A model generated the notes under the pieces. The model searched no databases and was not told where the DNA came from. It was given only the letters and a program-made list of their open reading frames with translations. Of a stretch of DNA of 33,865 nucleotides, positions 56-32,298 are shown in pieces. Every line of letters starts with the position of its first letter. Within the stretch, counting starts at the first letter, position 1. Source of the DNA: Elusimicrobiota bacterium (GTDB lineage: Bacteria; Elusimicrobiota; Elusimicrobia; UBA1565); contig NVTF01000010.1 in NCBI GenBank assembly GCA_002401485.1, positions 1 through 33,865 on the forward strand, given 5' to 3'. Position numbers and translations under genes: made by a program.

Positions 56-2650
56 CTAATTAGGAAAGTCTGAGATGCTTAACTTGATGGCGATGCCCCA
101 GCGGGGGCCCGGCAGCGCGCGCGCTAGTGAGAGCCGGTAATACTCCCCGGCAAATTCGAGAGCTTCTGCGGAGGGTGTTTCGTCGCGGCGAATCGCATCA
201 ATGACGCTTTCTCCCCATGCGACGTGCACCGCGAAAAACTCTGTCCCCGGGACTAGGAAGATGCGGGCGATCCAGAGATCGTTTTGACGGACGTCGTCGG
301 CCGCGATCACCGTCCGGAGGCGTTTATTTACGATGGGCAGTTCTTCGGGATGCGTGCGCATGCGGATCAAGTTCACGATATCGAGACGGTGCACGCTGCG
401 AGCCCCATCAAACATCGTTTCGGCGAAGGCCTTGTCAACGCGTGGGTCAAACAGCGGGTGCTTCAGTGCAGGCGCTCGGTTTTCGTACCAGCCCTCGTCT
501 CCGGGTTTGTTGCCGTCTATGGAATTCATCGATTTGAGCGCGCGGGCCGTGTGCAGGTCTTCTATTTTCCACGCGTCCATCGCGCCTTCCAGGATCGACT
601 TCGCCCGGTCTTGCTGCCCCTTCGTTTCGGGAGTGTCTTCTGTGAGCGATTGCTTCACGATGTTCACGAGTTGCCGGACCGTGGCTTTATAATCCGCATC
701 CTTGGCTGTGAGTTTGGAGACGACCGCGTCGACTTCTTCGGCGTCGCTTTTCCATTCCGGTTGGGGAATTTCCAGAATCGCCCGCGCCGTCCATTTCACA
801 TCGTCGTTTGTGAAATCGAGAAAACGGTGCACGTGGGCGGACCAGCCGGCGGGGATCGAGTCTTTTTCGGGATACCGCGCGTGAATGAGGCGCATGAAAT
901 TCTGGGCCTTTATCGCGTCGTTTTCTTCATGTGCCGCGTCGGCCAGAGCTGAAATCTCATCTTCATTGAGCGTATTGAGTTTCCGAACCGATTCGAGAAT
1001 AAGTTTCGGGACTGAGCGTCCCTTCACGCGGCGGGCAGGCCACTGCTTGGACCAGCGGCGGACGTTGTTCCAACCGACTTGTTTACCGTAGGCCCGGCGC
1101 AGAATTTTTAGAATCTCGGCGTCGGTTTTTCCGCCGTCAAAACTCTCGCCGATACGCCAGGAATTGAGTTCGTTAAGCAGGTTCATATAACTGCCGAAGA
1201 CCGAGCCAAAGAGCGCGTAGGACGGTCCGTCGATTTCGTACGGGACCGCCCAGCCCTTTTTGTCGATCCATCGCCGAAGTGATTCTTGGAACTTTTGGAA
1301 GCGCGCGTGGTTGGCTTCATGGGAGGTTGTATTGAGGTCCGCACGGCTTGGCATGACATAAGCCATTTGGTCTTCGCTTGGGTTGTAGTACGCGGCCGCC
1401 CCTTGATGTTCATCGTAGATGATAGGGATCCCGCGGCTGATGAGAAAGAGTACGGCGCGATAGATGCGCGCTGATAAGGTTTTGTCGGCGAGTTTCGCGG
1501 CGGCTTCTAGAATTTTTCGGGCAAGAAAAAACGAATTCCCGCCGCCCACGAGAAGGTAGTCCCCGACGCGGGCTGATTTCCGTTTGCCGGCGAGGGTGTG
1601 CCGCCGTACGACAGAGAGTTCGTGATTTTTGAGATGGGTGGTGTCCAGGATTTGCGTCGGATAGGAGAGGCGGTCCGACAGCCCGGTCAACAGACGTACG
1701 GGGTAGTCGGTTTCGGCCCGGCGGGATTGAGTGCGGAGGAAAACCGCCGCGGCGATGCGTTCGTCGAGGCTGTCGGATTTTAGAAATGAGTCCCAGAAAG
1801 CGAGCCCGTTTTGGATTGTCAGAACCGAATATTCATCCCGGCTTGTTTCAGAAACCGTGTAATTCTTGATTGTCTGATTGAACCGCTTTTTAACAAGGCG
1901 CGGGAGGCGTTTGTTGAAGGCTTTTACTTCCTTCAGAAACAAGGCGTGCTGACGCATGAATTCTTTTTTACCGACCTTGCGGGCCTTGTCCCACCGCTTT
2001 TCCAGCTCTTCGTGCATCAATTCTTCCATGACGTAGCGAACGTCATAGTCATCGATCGGCGTGTAGGCCTTGATGAAGTCGTCGCGCTCCTTGGCCTCGG
2101 AAATCGCGCGTATGCGCGCTTGAAACTCGTCGTTGATCAAGTCCGAGAGATCGCCTATCTTGAAAGTATTCGGGCCGACGATGATCCGGGTGGTTATGTT
2201 CGAGGCTTGTTGGGCGGGCGAAGGAGTATCCGCCGCGTTCACGGCGCCAACCGACTGTCTGTTATCGAAGATGATGGAGAGTTTTGATTGTTTGCTGCCT
2301 TGGCGTTGGAACAGCTGAGCTGTTTTGGAAACGAGGGTTTCCCGGCGGGCGGGGTTTGCTTCTACCCAGGGTCGATCGGGCTGCACTGTGATGCGGGCGG
2401 CAACGGGCGCCTTCGAAGCTAAAGGATTCGTTGGAATGGCAATTGTCTCAAGAACCGGCAGCATACTTGTGGGTAGGCCGGGCTGAATCGACTGCAGCGA
2501 GAGTGTCGGCGCCGCTAGACCCTGCGACAACATCGGTGTTCGGCCGACGATCACGGTTTTCAGGGAAACGGGCACGGAGCGCAGGGTCCGCGCGTGAGCC
2601 GGCGTCGCAGTCAATGCAAATAAAGCTAGGAATAGTTTTTTTCGGCTCAT
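56..2650 (-). CDS. Large secreted hypothetical protein with a zincin-like HEANH motif
   Basis: 864-aa ORF with N-terminal signal peptide (MSRKKLFLALFALTATPAHA), low-complexity linker, then ...TTSHEANHARF... (HExxH) and downstream LLNELNSWR. Confidence 0.8.
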   Translation of the reverse strand: MSRKKLFLALFALTATPAHARTLRSVPVSLKTVIVGRTPMLSQGLAAPTLSLQSIQPGLPTSMLPVLETIAIPTNPLASKAPVAARITVQPDRPWVEANPARRETLVSKTAQLFQRQGSKQSKLSIIFDNRQSVGAVNAADTPSPAQQASNITTRIIVGPNTFKIGDLSDLINDEFQARIRAISEAKERDDFIKAYTPIDDYDVRYVMEELMHEELEKRWDKARKVGKKEFMRQHALFLKEVKAFNKRLPRLVKKRFNQTIKNYTVSETSRDEYSVLTIQNGLAFWDSFLKSDSLDERIAAAVFLRTQSRRAETDYPVRLLTGLSDRLSYPTQILDTTHLKNHELSVVRRHTLAGKRKSARVGDYLLVGGGNSFFLARKILEAAAKLADKTLSARIYRAVLFLISRGIPIIYDEHQGAAAYYNPSEDQMAYVMPSRADLNTTSHEANHARFQKFQESLRRWIDKKGWAVPYEIDGPSYALFGSVFGSYMNLLNELNSWRIGESFDGGKTDAEILKILRRAYGKQVGWNNVRRWSKQWPARRVKGRSVPKLILESVRKLNTLNEDEISALADAAHEENDAIKAQNFMRLIHARYPEKDSIPAGWSAHVHRFLDFTNDDVKWTARAILEIPQPEWKSDAEEVDAVVSKLTAKDADYKATVRQLVNIVKQSLTEDTPETKGQQDRAKSILEGAMDAWKIEDLHTARALKSMNSIDGNKPGDEGWYENRAPALKHPLFDPRVDKAFAETMFDGARSVHRLDIVNLIRMRTHPEELPIVNKRLRTVIAADDVRQNDLWIARIFLVPGTEFFAVHVAWGESVIDAIRRDETPSAEALEFAGEYYRLSLARALPGPRWGIAIKLSISDFPN

Positions 2651-24810: not shown

Positions 24811-24881
24811 CGTTATTCCCCGTCGAGGATTAGGTGGTTTGGCCCACAGAGAATCAACCGTTGGGTGGTATCCTGTTGTCT

Positions 24882-27800
24882 ATGATGAAAAAGATCCTCC
24901 TCCAATTTCCCGTTCAAAAATCCATTGCTTCCGCTCTTGTTGCTGCGCTTTTAATGACGACTCCCGGACTCGGCGTTTATGAAGCGGCCGCAAAGATCGT
25001 CGGAAACACAAGCGTGACAACGATCCCCTCCGGCTTTAACGCACCGGTGGGTCTTGGTCACATCTTCGGTTTGGGCACAACAAAGGCTGAAGCATTTTTG
25101 AAGGTGGACAGCCTCGGATCTACTCTAACCGTTATCGATGCGCCGGTTTTTTTGCCGGAACAAACCCTTGCTGTTGCCTCTGCCGCGAAGTCGGACCCTA
25201 GGTCCTCTGTCCCGACAATAGCGATTTCCCCTGCTGGCATAAAAATTGCTGCTCGAATTTTAACGAGCCATGCCCCTGCAATTCGCGCGCCGCGTGTTAC
25301 GGCAAAACAAACCCTCACCACTACCGTTGAAGCGGTGCGTCATGAGTCGACCTCAGGCCGGGTTTCCGGGGCGCCGCTCACCCGACTTTTTGATTTCTCC
25401 AGACGCTCGCGTGATTCCAATGTCCCGGCAGTGCGCGGCTCCTACTTCGGATCACGCGGCAGCCGCCTTAGCCGCTCGGCTGAAGCCGCTGTTAATGCAG
25501 CCGATGAGCCCGCCTCTCCTTCCTCTACTAAGGAAAAGGCCGTGAAAAAGGGTCCGAGCAATACCCTTGTGATCGGACTCGCCGCTGCCGGAGCCGTCGC
25601 CTCGTTTTATTTCGCGCCCGTAATCCTCGCGGCCGCAGCAACCGCTCTCACGTTTGCGGGGCTGTCGACGCCGCTGTGGATTACCTCAGGATCGCTTTGG
25701 ACGACACTAGGCGTGAGCGCGCTTGGAGTTGTTGTCGGTTCTGCGGTTTCGCAGTATCCGTTATGGCTTTCCTTCCCTAGGGATGTTATTCAAAGCGCCA
25801 CGAATGCGGGTGCCAACACCTTTAAGTTTTGGGCGCGTTTCGGCCGCATTTTAGATTCGGTTTTAACCGGCCGATCAACGGAAGACGCCAATAAGGCGGA
25901 TTTGCCCGCTAACATTTTCAAATATCCGGTGCTTGCCTGGCCGTTTTTCTTAACAGGCCTTGGCGTGGTCCCCATCGTGATGGCTACCGGTGCGGTCGCT
26001 CTAGGCTGGCCGGTGTTGACGGTTTGGGGCATCGGCGCCGCTTTAATTTTTGGAGGCGCTCCCGTATTCTTTGCTGCCGGCCTCCTTTATAAGGTTGTTG
26101 AGACTCCTATTCGGGCTGCGCTGCGCGGACTTAAACAGGTCGCGTTCCAATTTTTTCCTTGGCTGATTGACTTTTTCAACTTTTTAGGACGTGTTCTTCG
26201 TAAGCTCTTCCCGTTCATTGGCGGCGGGCTTTGGGGCATCGTCAGGACGGCGGGTTTTGGCATTGCCGCAGGGTTTTTGACAACCGCTCGTCCGATCTGG
26301 GAGGGTGTTGCGGATTCGGAGATCGCTGAGCCGGATCTTCAAAAGCGGGACCGTCTCTATTCGATTCCCCGAAAGGTCGGCATTATAGCGGTGCGGATTG
26401 CGGGTGGATTGACCGCTCTCGTCGCGGGTGTTCTTGGGGCCGGCATTGGGCTGGTGCTTTCGCTGCCTTTCATGCTCGTGCATCCGCTTCATATCGCATT
26501 GGATTGGGCCAAAATCGAGACGGGAACAATCGCAGGGTTCACGAAACGTTTCCACGATAACCTTGACGATGAGGAAGGGTTGGGAGAGCTGGCGCAAACC
26601 GAATTCGAGGCCGCCGGCGACCAACGGTCTATTTCCTTGGCGCATGCAGTCGCACGTTTGGCGAATGCACCGCTGCACGCGGGATACCTTTCGGTCGCGC
26701 TCATTGCGACGGCGCTGACGGCTTATTTCCGAACCTGGAGCCGTTCCTTGGGTTGGACAACACGGCCGGAACGCGTCACCGCTGAGCCGCTTGATGGAGT
26801 CAAAGAAATTCGGGATGCCGACAGCAAACGCATATCCGCGGCTCCTGAAAATCCTCACTTCTGGGCTCCGTTCCTTCTCGGAACTCTTGGGGCACTCGGC
26901 GGCTCCGCCGCCGTCTATACCACCGTGCTCGGCGGCGCTCTTTCGCTGGCATGGCTGCCGCTTGCGTTATTGGCGTTAGGGACTGCGGCAGGCGGATTTA
27001 TTGGATTAGCAATTTCCCAGCCGGCGGCGTGGAGCAATCTCTTTGGCGGCATCAAGAAAGAGGCTGTTGACGGCGCGACAGCGTCTTATCGGGCTTCCGC
27101 GAGACTCGGACTTCGCACGGACGCAGCACTTCGTGATCGTGCGGTGAGTGAGCATTTGTATAGAAACGCTCCGGCGAATCTTCTTCAGTACCCGTGGCTC
27201 GCCCTTCCCGGCGTAATTGTGGGATACGTCGCCGCCGTTTTCGGCTTCATTGCTGGTCCCATTGCCGTTGTTGTTGGAACCGCGACGCAAGCGGCATGGA
27301 CCGGTTTCCTTTCGCTGGTCGAGCGATTTATTCCGGCGCTCAAACGAGTTCTTAAACGCATAGTGAAAATTCTGCGCAACGCCATTCCCTTTGCGGGTGG
27401 TTTGATCTGGGGAACTATCCGCGGTCTGTTTATCACTGGGGTCGCTTCAGCGGCAGTTGCCGCAGGACCGATTTTTGACGCGGTGTTCGATAAAGATCTC
27501 GATATCGATGAGTCGCGTTACGATATGGACGGCATCTCCAAGATCATTGCAGTGCGCGCCTTCCAGCTCGTTGCTGTGATCGGGCTGCTCACCGCGGCAC
27601 TGCTTGGTTTCGTGACCGGTTTGATTTATGGATTGCCGTATACCGCGGTCTTCGCTCTCGGGAAAGCCTTCGATTGGGGCAATGTCGGCGGTAAATCCGA
27701 GAATTTCTTCCGTCTCTGGGAGAAAGAATCGCTGCGTGATGAGGATGTTCGCTTCGAACAGCTCGTTCGTTCGGGTTTCTCCGAAGATGAAAAGAATATC

Positions 27801-29654
27801 TCCTTGTGGCAGGGTATCGCGCGTTTGGGCAATACACTCGGCGCTGCGGCGATTACGCCGTTGACAAGCATTCCGATTGCGGTGTCGGTATTCTTCCGCA
27901 CCATTTACCGGGCGGGGCGTGCGGCACGCGATCGTGAGCCGGGCGTAAGCACGTATGAGTTCGCTTCCGATCTCGAGACCGCGCTTAACCGACATGAGGG
28001 TTTTGTTCGAGCCTACCAAGGACGCCGCCGCGGCACGGTCGAAACCGTATTTACGAGTGAATCCTCTTATCGCCGAGCACTCGCGGAGGGACTCATTCGC
28101 TCACGGATGAAGGGTTTTGATATAGAGATCATCTACGAAGATGCCGAAGGCGTCGACGGGGATGATCTCAAACGCGCTCGAGGCTCACTTGATGAAGAGG
28201 CCGACTCCGTTCAGGAAAAGAAAGCGGATGATCTTTCCGGAGCCGGAGCCGGAGCCGGCGTCGCGGCCGTTCTTGGTTTGCTCGGCGCCGTTGCTGCCGG
28301 GTATGCGGGTTTTGCATTCGCGCTTCCTCTTCTAGGATTGACGGGTTGGTCATGGCTGCTTGGTTTGGCCGGGTCGGCCCTGATCGGCGCGGGGATTGGG
28401 TTCGCGATTTCACAACCCTCCATCCTTCGCCAGTGGCCGCACGCCATCGGATCGGCGATGCGCGACGGTGTTGATGCGGCATGGAAATTCTGGACCGGCT
28501 ACGCCGGACGTTACGCCATGACGCTGAAGGGGGATCGGGTTCCGGCTGCCTCTACGCTGGGAACGGTTCACTACGTTGGTGGTGTTGTCGGCGCGGTCGG
28601 AACAGGCATTGCGGGTTTTATTTACGGGCTCGTCTCGGTTCCGTTGGAGGCCTCCCTGGTCGGCGCCCACAAGGTCGCACTGGGCTTATGGCCGTGGTTG
28701 AAGGGCGTGTTCAAGACTATCGCTCGGGTCGCACGGCGATTTTTCCCATTCGTGTTCGGGGGCATTGTCGGGCTGGTTGTCGGCGTTTTTGGAACAGCGC
28801 TTTTTGGAGCGTTGTTGTTGGGTCGCCCCTGGTTTAAATACGTGGTTGCGGAAGATTACGATACCGATACAACCGGTAAGTTCTTAGGAACGACGGCGCT
28901 TCGCATCGTCGCTTCCATCATCGGCGTGATTGCGGGTCTTGCGGGAGGCGCGGTTTTCTTCGCGGTGCCGGCTGCCATCGGCTTCTACGCCTTTGGAACG
29001 TGGGGGATCACCCTTGGCTTGGCAGCGGCGCTGCCGTATTCGCTTACCCTGAGCGCCGCATTGGCTTTCTGGATGGGGGACATCGGCGGCAGGGCCCAGC
29101 GCTTCTTTGATTTGTGGGCTAAGTCCGCCTTGCGCATAGAATTGCATCGTATGAACAAGCTCACCGACAGCATGGAGTTTAACGAGAAGCGCACCAATGG
29201 CGAGATTCAGCCGGCAGACGGTTGGATCCGACTTGCTAATGTTTTTGCGGGTACGCTCGCGGCGGCGATTGCCGGCATCGTTGCCAGTTTGGTCACCTAT
29301 CCGCGGAGCCTCTTTCGCGCGGGCAAGGATCTGTCCGCTGGGAAAACCCTGGATGGGAGTCAGGGTTTTGACGACTTCTCGCCGATCTATGACTCCCGCA
29401 GCGGCAGAAAAGTCTTCAATAAAATAGCCGCCGGAATTTCCCTTGCCTCAGGCATCGTCTTCTCTATCTGGATGCTTGGTTGGGGTCCGTACGGATTGTT
29501 GACGGCATTGTGGAAGGCCGCCGTGATCGTTGCGCTCGCTTACCCGGTCGGCTGGGTCGCCGGATGGGTTTTGGGTCTCATCGCCGGCTTTGCAATCGGC
29601 GCCGTCGTCTGGCTCTCCCGCCAACTAGCCAAAACCCCACCCCAAGCCAAATAA
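24882..29654 (+). CDS. Giant polytopic membrane protein with three tandem modules
   Basis: About 1590 aa from MMKKILLQFPVQKSIASALVAALLM; starts at 24882 rather than 24834 (TATCCT 7 nt upstream). Long Gly/Ala hydrophobic segments in recurring order. Confidence 0.85.
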   Translation: MMKKILLQFPVQKSIASALVAALLMTTPGLGVYEAAAKIVGNTSVTTIPSGFNAPVGLGHIFGLGTTKAEAFLKVDSLGSTLTVIDAPVFLPEQTLAVASAAKSDPRSSVPTIAISPAGIKIAARILTSHAPAIRAPRVTAKQTLTTTVEAVRHESTSGRVSGAPLTRLFDFSRRSRDSNVPAVRGSYFGSRGSRLSRSAEAAVNAADEPASPSSTKEKAVKKGPSNTLVIGLAAAGAVASFYFAPVILAAAATALTFAGLSTPLWITSGSLWTTLGVSALGVVVGSAVSQYPLWLSFPRDVIQSATNAGANTFKFWARFGRILDSVLTGRSTEDANKADLPANIFKYPVLAWPFFLTGLGVVPIVMATGAVALGWPVLTVWGIGAALIFGGAPVFFAAGLLYKVVETPIRAALRGLKQVAFQFFPWLIDFFNFLGRVLRKLFPFIGGGLWGIVRTAGFGIAAGFLTTARPIWEGVADSEIAEPDLQKRDRLYSIPRKVGIIAVRIAGGLTALVAGVLGAGIGLVLSLPFMLVHPLHIALDWAKIETGTIAGFTKRFHDNLDDEEGLGELAQTEFEAAGDQRSISLAHAVARLANAPLHAGYLSVALIATALTAYFRTWSRSLGWTTRPERVTAEPLDGVKEIRDADSKRISAAPENPHFWAPFLLGTLGALGGSAAVYTTVLGGALSLAWLPLALLALGTAAGGFIGLAISQPAAWSNLFGGIKKEAVDGATASYRASARLGLRTDAALRDRAVSEHLYRNAPANLLQYPWLALPGVIVGYVAAVFGFIAGPIAVVVGTATQAAWTGFLSLVERFIPALKRVLKRIVKILRNAIPFAGGLIWGTIRGLFITGVASAAVAAGPIFDAVFDKDLDIDESRYDMDGISKIIAVRAFQLVAVIGLLTAALLGFVTGLIYGLPYTAVFALGKAFDWGNVGGKSENFFRLWEKESLRDEDVRFEQLVRSGFSEDEKNISLWQGIARLGNTLGAAAITPLTSIPIAVSVFFRTIYRAGRAARDREPGVSTYEFASDLETALNRHEGFVRAYQGRRRGTVETVFTSESSYRRALAEGLIRSRMKGFDIEIIYEDAEGVDGDDLKRARGSLDEEADSVQEKKADDLSGAGAGAGVAAVLGLLGAVAAGYAGFAFALPLLGLTGWSWLLGLAGSALIGAGIGFAISQPSILRQWPHAIGSAMRDGVDAAWKFWTGYAGRYAMTLKGDRVPAASTLGTVHYVGGVVGAVGTGIAGFIYGLVSVPLEASLVGAHKVALGLWPWLKGVFKTIARVARRFFPFVFGGIVGLVVGVFGTALFGALLLGRPWFKYVVAEDYDTDTTGKFLGTTALRIVASIIGVIAGLAGGAVFFAVPAAIGFYAFGTWGITLGLAAALPYSLTLSAALAFWMGDIGGRAQRFFDLWAKSALRIELHRMNKLTDSMEFNEKRTNGEIQPADGWIRLANVFAGTLAAAIAGIVASLVTYPRSLFRAGKDLSAGKTLDGSQGFDDFSPIYDSRSGRKVFNKIAAGISLASGIVFSIWMLGWGPYGLLTALWKAAVIVALAYPVGWVAGWVLGLIAGFAIGAVVWLSRQLAKTPPQAK
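25555..26854 (+). repeat. Protein-level module 1 of the giant membrane protein
   Basis: Landmarks: GSAVSQYPLWLSF ... FPFIGGGLWGIVRTAGFG ... VGIIAVRIAGGLTALVAGVLGAGIGLVLSLPFMLVHPLHIALDWAKIE ... RLANAPLHAGYLSVALIATALTAYFRTWSR. Boundaries approximate. Confidence 0.7.
26855..28240 (+). repeat. Protein-level module 2 of the giant membrane protein
   Basis: Landmarks: GLAISQPAAWSNLF ... IPFAGGLIWGTIRGLFIT ... KIIAVRAFQLVAVIGLLTAALLGFVTGLIYGLPYTAVFALGKAFDWGNVGGKSENFFRLWEKESLRDE ... RLGNTLGAAAITPLTSIPIAVSVFFRTIYRAGR. Confidence 0.7.
28241..29400 (+). repeat. Protein-level module 3 of the giant membrane protein
   Basis: Landmarks: GFAISQPSILRQW ... FPFVFGGIVGLVVGVFGT ... TALRIVASIIGVIAGLAGGAVFFAV ... 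FWMGDIGGRAQRFFDLWAKSALRIE ... RLANVFAGTLAAAIAGIVASLVTYPRSLFRAGK. Confidence 0.7.
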
Positions 29655-31001: not shown

Positions 31002-32222
31002 CTACGCGAAAAATGAGTTGCCGGGAGCGGCGAACGTCACGTCAAGAGGATTTCCCGACTCGAGCAGTTTTTGACGCAGATTGCTGATCGCCGACCCGAG
31101 CGCGTCCGGACCGTAACGTGCATCGGAATTAAAAAGCACCAATTTCCTCACGCCCGCCTCCGTCGCAGCGAGTACCGCCGCTGAGGGCGAGGAATTTCCT
31201 TGGTCTTTATACGCGACGAAATCCGCATCGAGATAACGCGCGTCGTGCACCAGAATATCGGCGGCGTGCGCGAAATTTCGAAATTTATTGCGAAACTCGA
31301 TGGAGGTGCTTTCCTCATCGGTCGGGTATTCGTTGTCGGGACAATAGACGACGCTTCTCCCCTGAAATTCAACCCGGTAGGCCAGGCAGGAACGGGGGTG
31401 CAGAGTGAAAATAGCGGACGCCCGGACACCGGCCCATAAGTTGAACTTTGATTCCGAGACGGCGAAGATTTGAACTGCTGGACGTGGAGGTCCGTTCGCA
31501 TACAGTTTCTTGTTGAGTACCCCTTGGAGCGGTTCGCCGTGATCGTTGGGGCCGACGATGTTGAGGGTGTATTCTTCTCCAAACGCGGAGGCGAGATCGG
31601 CAAGCCCTGCAACCCGGTCGGGCTGGTAGTTGGAAAGCAGTAGCCAGACTTGTTTTTCGATGGGTTTTTGTTTATTTGCAAGTAAATCTTTAAGACCGGT
31701 TCCGGCATCCAGGATCAGTAAATTGGGGCCGAGATCGATGGAAATGCAGCTGGTGGGCTGGCCGACCGCGGGCGTCCCGCCGGACGAGGTCGAGCCCCAA
31801 ATTTTTCCGATCGAGGCGGCCGGTCGCGGCGTCATTGTTGAGCCGGCGGTTAAAGCGCCGGGAGCGCCGATTAATTTATGGACGATGGAGCGCAATTCTT
31901 CAATCTGGAGGGGTTTACCCAAGAAGGCTGCGGCACCGCAGAGATGTGCCTCGTCCTGAACTTGTTTGTATCGCTTCCCTGAGGTGACGATCACTTGGGT
32001 ATGACTCAAAGCGGGGTTGGATTTTATGGTGCGGCATATCGTCAGCCCGTCCATCATGGGCATCATGATGTCAACGATGACGAGTCGGGGGCGTTGGCGT
32101 TTGATTTCGGCTATCGCGCTTTGGCCGTTGTAGTACTTATCAGTGGTGTATCCCTTTCCACGGAGGGCCTCGGTTAGGAGTTCCGCATTGTAGGTATCAT
32201 CGTCAAAAATAAGGACATCCAT
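31002..32222 (-). CDS. REC domain fused to a degenerate metallo-beta-lactamase-fold domain
   Basis: REC: VLIFDDDTYNAELL, LVIVDIMMPMMDGL, IVTSGKR, FLGKPLQ. MBL-like: TSCISIDLGPNLLILDAGTGLKDL, ILVHDARYLDADF, GVRKLVLFNSDA. Start chosen at MDVLIF (32222). Confidence 0.85.
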   Translation of the reverse strand: MDVLIFDDDTYNAELLTEALRGKGYTTDKYYNGQSAIAEIKRQRPRLVIVDIMMPMMDGLTICRTIKSNPALSHTQVIVTSGKRYKQVQDEAHLCGAAAFLGKPLQIEELRSIVHKLIGAPGALTAGSTMTPRPAASIGKIWGSTSSGGTPAVGQPTSCISIDLGPNLLILDAGTGLKDLLANKQKPIEKQVWLLLSNYQPDRVAGLADLASAFGEEYTLNIVGPNDHGEPLQGVLNKKLYANGPPRPAVQIFAVSESKFNLWAGVRASAIFTLHPRSCLAYRVEFQGRSVVYCPDNEYPTDEESTSIEFRNKFRNFAHAADILVHDARYLDADFVAYKDQGNSSPSAAVLAATEAGVRKLVLFNSDARYGPDALGSAISNLRQKLLESGNPLDVTFAAPGNSFFA

Positions 32223-32298
32223 TGCCCATAGGGTAGGTCTGCGGCTTCCCAGTGTCAAGTCCGGGAATTTCTTGGCCAATTTAGGCTAGTCTATTCCT

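Follow-up and report, generated by a model that had tools for sequence, protein, structure and literature searches.

Internally repeated polytopic membrane proteins include mitochondrial carriers, which have three repeats, and four-domain voltage-gated cation channels, and tandem repeats are common in transporters. The window analyzed here (the whole 33,865-nucleotide stretch of contig NVTF01000010.1, from an Elusimicrobiota bacterium) encodes a giant protein composed of three homologous membrane modules and an extra C-terminal membrane segment. That the modules are homologous and that the protein founds a genuine family is virtually certain. The literature searched contained no published account of this protein or of its leader. 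The protein is lineage-specific and probably resides in the inner membrane.

Layout of the Giant Protein

The sequence-only reading had proposed a giant membrane protein of about 1590 aa at 24882-29654, and the translation bears this out: the frame is open throughout 24834..29654(+), and the ATG at 24882 yields 1590 uninterrupted residues with a signal-peptide-like N-terminus. Residues 1-221 stand outside the repeat. They start with a signal peptide recognized in the translation (residues 1-37; 24882..24992(+)), which carries the lineage motif TTPGLGVYEAAA, also present on many unrelated Elusimicrobiota ORFs, and a putative A-x-A cleavage site. An A/S/T/P-rich linker, delimited by composition, follows (residues 38-203; 24993..25490(+)), and the leader is closed by a VNAAD motif (residues 204-208; 25491..25505(+)), assigned from pattern counts in the genome and from its position in ORFs.

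Module 1 spans residues 222-645 (25545..26816(+); family profile match 25548-26783), as delimited by hhalign to modules 2 and 3. Module 2, delimited likewise by hhalign, spans residues 655-1062 (26844..28067(+); profile match 26847-27950), and module 3, the most conserved, residues 1075-1500 (28104..29381(+); profile match 28251-29354). The C-terminal extension of about 90 aa (residues 1501-1590; 29382..29651(+)) contributes two to three further hydrophobic spans by hydropathy and is found in orthologues too; about 23 hydrophobic segments are predicted for the whole protein by the same means. A soluble insertion lies between modules 2 and 3 at 27924-28241 (approximately residues 1015-1120), and orthologues lack it or have a much shorter one.

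Evidence for Internal Triplication

The modules of the window protein share 26-30% identity, and BLAST of module against module, using the window sequence alone, gives E-values of 5e-26, 2e-11, and 9e-18. Profile-profile self-comparison by hhalign, a check that had been suggested for the proposed triplication, is stronger still: with module profiles built from 12 proteins and 348-360 aligned columns, E is 4.9e-45 for modules 1 and 2, 7.4e-37 for modules 2 and 3, and 3e-29 for modules 1 and 3, the weakest pair. Among the reversed-profile controls, the lowest E is 1.6e-5, obtained when a module is aligned to its own reverse; the window's unrelated membrane proteins (MFS, DUF819-like, MscS, and Bax-inhibitor-like) come no lower than 0.035 against the modules. 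Smith-Waterman scores between modules are 287, 202, and 276 vs 53-60 (sd about 10) when sequences are shuffled with the polar/non-polar pattern preserved, corresponding to z of 14.6-24.3. The membrane part is rich in Ala (14.9%) and Gly (11.9%), which would be the basis for regarding the repeat as a mere artefact of transmembrane composition; as all three kinds of control (shuffled, reversed, and unrelated) score far lower, this explanation is ruled out and its probability is negligible. Pairwise, profile-profile, and shuffle tests thus agree with the triplication originally read from the sequence.

The recurring motifs noticed in that reading are located at VSQYP/ISQPA/ISQPS (residues 289/711/1176), FPFIGG/IPFAGG/FPFVFGG (443/835/1288), and RLANAP/RLGNTL/RLANVF (592/981/1450), each occurring three times as described. 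The DW/GDIGG-FF-LW motif, assigned to all three modules, stands out in modules 2 and 3 but is degenerate in module 1. The number of modules stands, but the 430-470 aa ascribed to each reduces to about 355 shared columns. Within-module two-fold repeats were searched for in the window sequence, and none was detected.

Anatomy of the Module

In the common module, 355 columns are well filled, and hydrophobic spans lie at columns approximately 10-50 (probably a pair), 113-133, 172-193, 222-254, and 317-335. The long span at columns 222-254 is possibly a hairpin. A module may have six spans or seven; its orientation depends on this number, and loop charges give no clear decision.

Between spans 3 and 4, each module has a cationic amphipathic helix flanked by a pair of prolines at a spacing of 18 residues (P-x17-P). 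In module 1, the helix lies between P426 and P444 (26157..26213(+)) with a hydrophobic moment of 0.70 vs 0.30 for shuffles; in module 2, between P818 and P836 (27333..27389(+); moment 0.86, net charge +6); and in module 3, between P1271 and P1289 (28692..28748(+); moment 0.80, net charge +5), with shuffles at 0.30-0.34 overall. All three modules of the window protein have this spacing, as do most modules of the orthologues; module 2 of the four family-f1 orthologues does not.

GxxxG motifs within hydrophobic spans number 192 vs 82.5 (sd 8.1) after shuffling, a 2.3-fold excess counted over 36 module rows that are related to one another and are not independent observations; part of this excess may reflect Gly-rich ancestry. 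With spans defined by hydropathy only, no Asp or Glu in the hydrophobic cores is conserved above 50% in any module class, and the polar core positions are isolated Lys, Gln, or His residues (57-75%), each in one module class. Of the 111 invariant columns of the protein, about 61 by hand count belong to module 3, with stretches such as GSAAFGALLLGRPxFKxV and LTDxFxF. Four orthologues in the window's family have no counterpart of the hydrophobic pair that opens module 3.

Relatives, Distribution, and Age

Relatives were searched with the giant protein as query, first in related genomes and then in 341 genomes of the phylum. Counterparts, some of them with ORFs truncated at contig ends, occur in 11 other genomes, four in the window's own family and seven in one genus of a second family of the same order. 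The common module profile matches three times in each of these 12 genomes, the window's included, and has no match in the rest of the 341; it was built from the member sequences themselves, so that these matches define the family and are no independent test of it. In one genome (G222), module 1 is split across two frames, which produces a fourth profile row. The same search, which had been proposed as a way to find single-module homologues, detected none among the 341 Elusimicrobiota genomes. A same-genus genome that is 95% complete does not have the giant gene, and the distribution is therefore patchy.

Pattern scans of GTDB species genomes returned only already known members, nearly all labeled Elusimicrobia or Elusimicrobiota, and peptide-pattern scans of viral contigs and plasmids gave no match; these contig scans used two short peptide patterns, which distant relatives in other phyla could escape. 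Genome contigs scanned with the single window sequence likewise yielded nothing. Named records of the relatives are metagenome-assembled genomes labeled Elusimicrobia or Elusimicrobiota, one merely 'bacterium', and include Elusimicrobia bacterium GWA2_69_24 and chromosome CP096137. Several genomes with complete relatives come from groundwater.

Relatives from either family are 33-36% identical to the window protein; within the second family, identity to one chosen member is 66-86%. In a tree of 36 modules, all first modules form one clade (98/99) and all third modules another (100/99); second modules are unresolved but compatible, and the module labels require two changes, the least possible. 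Therefore, the triplication is older than the split of the two families, consistent with the old duplication assumed beforehand. Ratios of dN/dS are 0.26-0.39 in six pairs, and purifying selection on the giant gene is evident from these codon comparisons. Retention of the three copies, in order and under purifying selection, is established.

A Leader Common to Many Elusimicrobiota Proteins

Residues 1-208 correspond to a leader that many Elusimicrobiota proteins share without being otherwise related. It consists of a signal peptide, marked by a motif of the type T-x-P-G-x-G-x-Y-x-A-x-A, a low-complexity linker of 60-215 aa, often an FDG motif, and, in the source genome, VNAAD at its close. Such leaders are seen in the window at 24882-25505 and 2228-2242(-), and at loci L083-L130 and L150-L157. 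Over its whole length the leader is poorly conserved (21-24% identity between orthologues). The VNAAD coding pattern has 18 copies in the genome vs two for a reversed control, mostly 58-215 aa after the ORF start; a further 59 genomes from the phylum have 0-4 occurrences of the DNA pattern each, and enrichment is limited to the source genome.

The bodies behind VNAAD include M16, M50 plus S8, MscS-like, MFS plus ATP-grasp, and PLD proteins. Leaders of the PG type without VNAAD precede a ClpB-like AAA protein in the source genome and an ABC-type membrane domain in a relative. When other leader-bearing proteins (excluding very short ORFs) were compared with the modules, no relatives beyond the giant family were found. 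The leader is possibly a sorting or processing signal. A periplasmic linker would suit the MscS-like protein and also the AAA protein, in which a single hydrophobic segment directly follows it, whereas members of the MFS and ABC families normally have the N-terminus inside; the topology of a leader before such families is thus puzzling.

A 2097-aa ORF of the same genome (L150:116-6406(+)) joins the leader, an MFS domain, and an L-amino-acid-ligase-like ATP-grasp in one chain, and a Caleosin-family protein (Pfam E 1.7e-39) stands behind a VNAAD leader at L114:1501-2118(+). The window also encodes, at 56-2650(-), an 864-aa exported protein that has a VNAAD leader and for which no Pfam match exceeds the cut-off. 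In the G017 orthologue of the giant protein (L038:8445-12824(-)), the leader is about 110 aa longer owing to an additional stretch (EYRPGQIILHVK...) that, judged by eye, looks like a subtilase pro-domain.

Genomic Neighborhood

There is no conserved operon around the giant gene, and no neighbors are common to the window, family f1, and family f2. The window neighbors encode a phosphate acetyl/butyryltransferase, response regulators, a receiver-metallo-beta-lactamase fusion, and a PfkB kinase. Orthologues are flanked by glutamine synthetase III, an Mrp-type NTPase, and AhpC in one family, and by a TPR protein and a lipoprotein-like ORF in the other. The fusion, a response-regulator receiver joined to a metallo-beta-lactamase-fold domain, is encoded at 31002-32279(-); an ORF similar to it by BLAST (cluster c54) is located close to the orthologue in L036.

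Structure Models and Possible Role

The AlphaFold2 model of module 3 is all-helical (pLDDT 75.8, pTM 0.55), whereas that of a three-module orthologue is of low reliability (pLDDT 52, pTM 0.32). Given these weak models, module packing and a pseudo-trimer remain conjectural. A Foldseek search with the module 3 model, itself of only moderate confidence, found nothing at E <= 0.001 in PDB or among viral models. The giant ORF produced only sub-threshold noise against Pfam, NCBIfam, and PHROGs, as did the Pfam scan of the 12 members and a profile search of PDB sequences, in agreement with the initial impression that the protein belongs to no named family.

A module of about six hydrophobic spans was triplicated in tandem before the two Elusimicrobiota families split. 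The export leader, a type that precedes other membrane proteins such as the MscS-like one, would carry the chain to the membrane and leave a periplasmic linker. There, the three modules might pack side by side via glycine zippers as a single-chain pseudo-trimer, each holding its cationic helix on the membrane face between the two proline kinks. Module 3, being the most conserved, would be the working core, and modules 1 and 2 might be more structural; as the modules are unequally conserved, a strictly symmetric three-fold pore does not suit. The most likely job would be that of a passive conduit or a membrane-organizing scaffold with no partner encoded alongside. A single-chain, three-module inner-membrane conduit or scaffold with module 3 as its core is accordingly put forward only tentatively. 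It is rather doubtful that the protein has a membrane fold absent from solved structures, namely a single-chain pseudo-trimer of a triplicated glycine-zipper module with an interfacial proline-bracketed helix, confined to one Elusimicrobiota order and equipped with a lineage-specific export leader.

The surface amphipathic helices could have a more active part, with all three sensing or bending the lipid bilayer. The strong cationic helix between two prolines in every module (moments 0.70-0.86) and glycine-zipper packing are consistent with such a tension-responsive or membrane-shaping protein, but in-plane amphipathic helices also serve as simple connectors, and comparison with mechanosensitive channels and membrane-bending proteins, by family or by fold, yields nothing beyond noise, leaving this a possible but somewhat improbable role. 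The polytopic, triplicate layout with its roughly 23 segments also recalls repeat-containing transporters. The lack of a conserved acidic residue in the hydrophobic cores, where only isolated Lys, Gln, or His occur at 57-75%, speaks against an ordinary ion-coupled transporter, and no transporter family is matched in Pfam, NCBIfam, or PDB. An ion-coupled secondary transporter that acquired three modules by triplication is thus unlikely, and a conduit or scaffold is more likely.

Membership in the MotA/TolQ/ExbB proton-channel superfamily, or a partnership with an envelope motor, is highly improbable. It is suggested by one Pfam match, PF01618 to residues 1083-1138, whose score (10.8 bits, E 0.42) lies below the gathering cut-off of 22.9; only one of the 12 members shows it (E 0.35), and no ExbD/TolR/MotB-type partner occurs among the ten neighbor ORFs scanned around orthologues or the window ORFs scanned.

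Comparison with Known Systems

The evidence for an orphan family is good: its membrane proteins are very large and retain the triplicate intact, in a phylum that has received little study. The giant protein offers a clean target for structure work and an example of a fused multi-module membrane assembly, and the common leader may show how Elusimicrobiota route many membrane and envelope proteins.

The likeness to MotA/TolQ/ExbB is a weak similarity of one stretch, with a score under half of the cut-off and not common to family members. MscS (PF00924) is linked to the giant protein by the leader type before an MscS-like protein of the same genome, and in-plane amphipathic helices would be a common feature. 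Unlike MscS, the giant protein has no profile match to the family and no beta-domain: Pfam finds none after the third helix in the giant ORF or the 12 members, and the window's own MscS scores E 0.035 or worse by hhalign. Mitochondrial carriers are built from three repeats of about 100 aa, and no Pfam carrier match is found in the giant ORF or the 12 members. The module, with about 355 shared columns, differs from the units of both these carriers and voltage-gated cation channels, neither of which it matches in Pfam, but the giant protein resembles both in its old in-chain tandem duplication, whose copies have diverged while their order has been kept.
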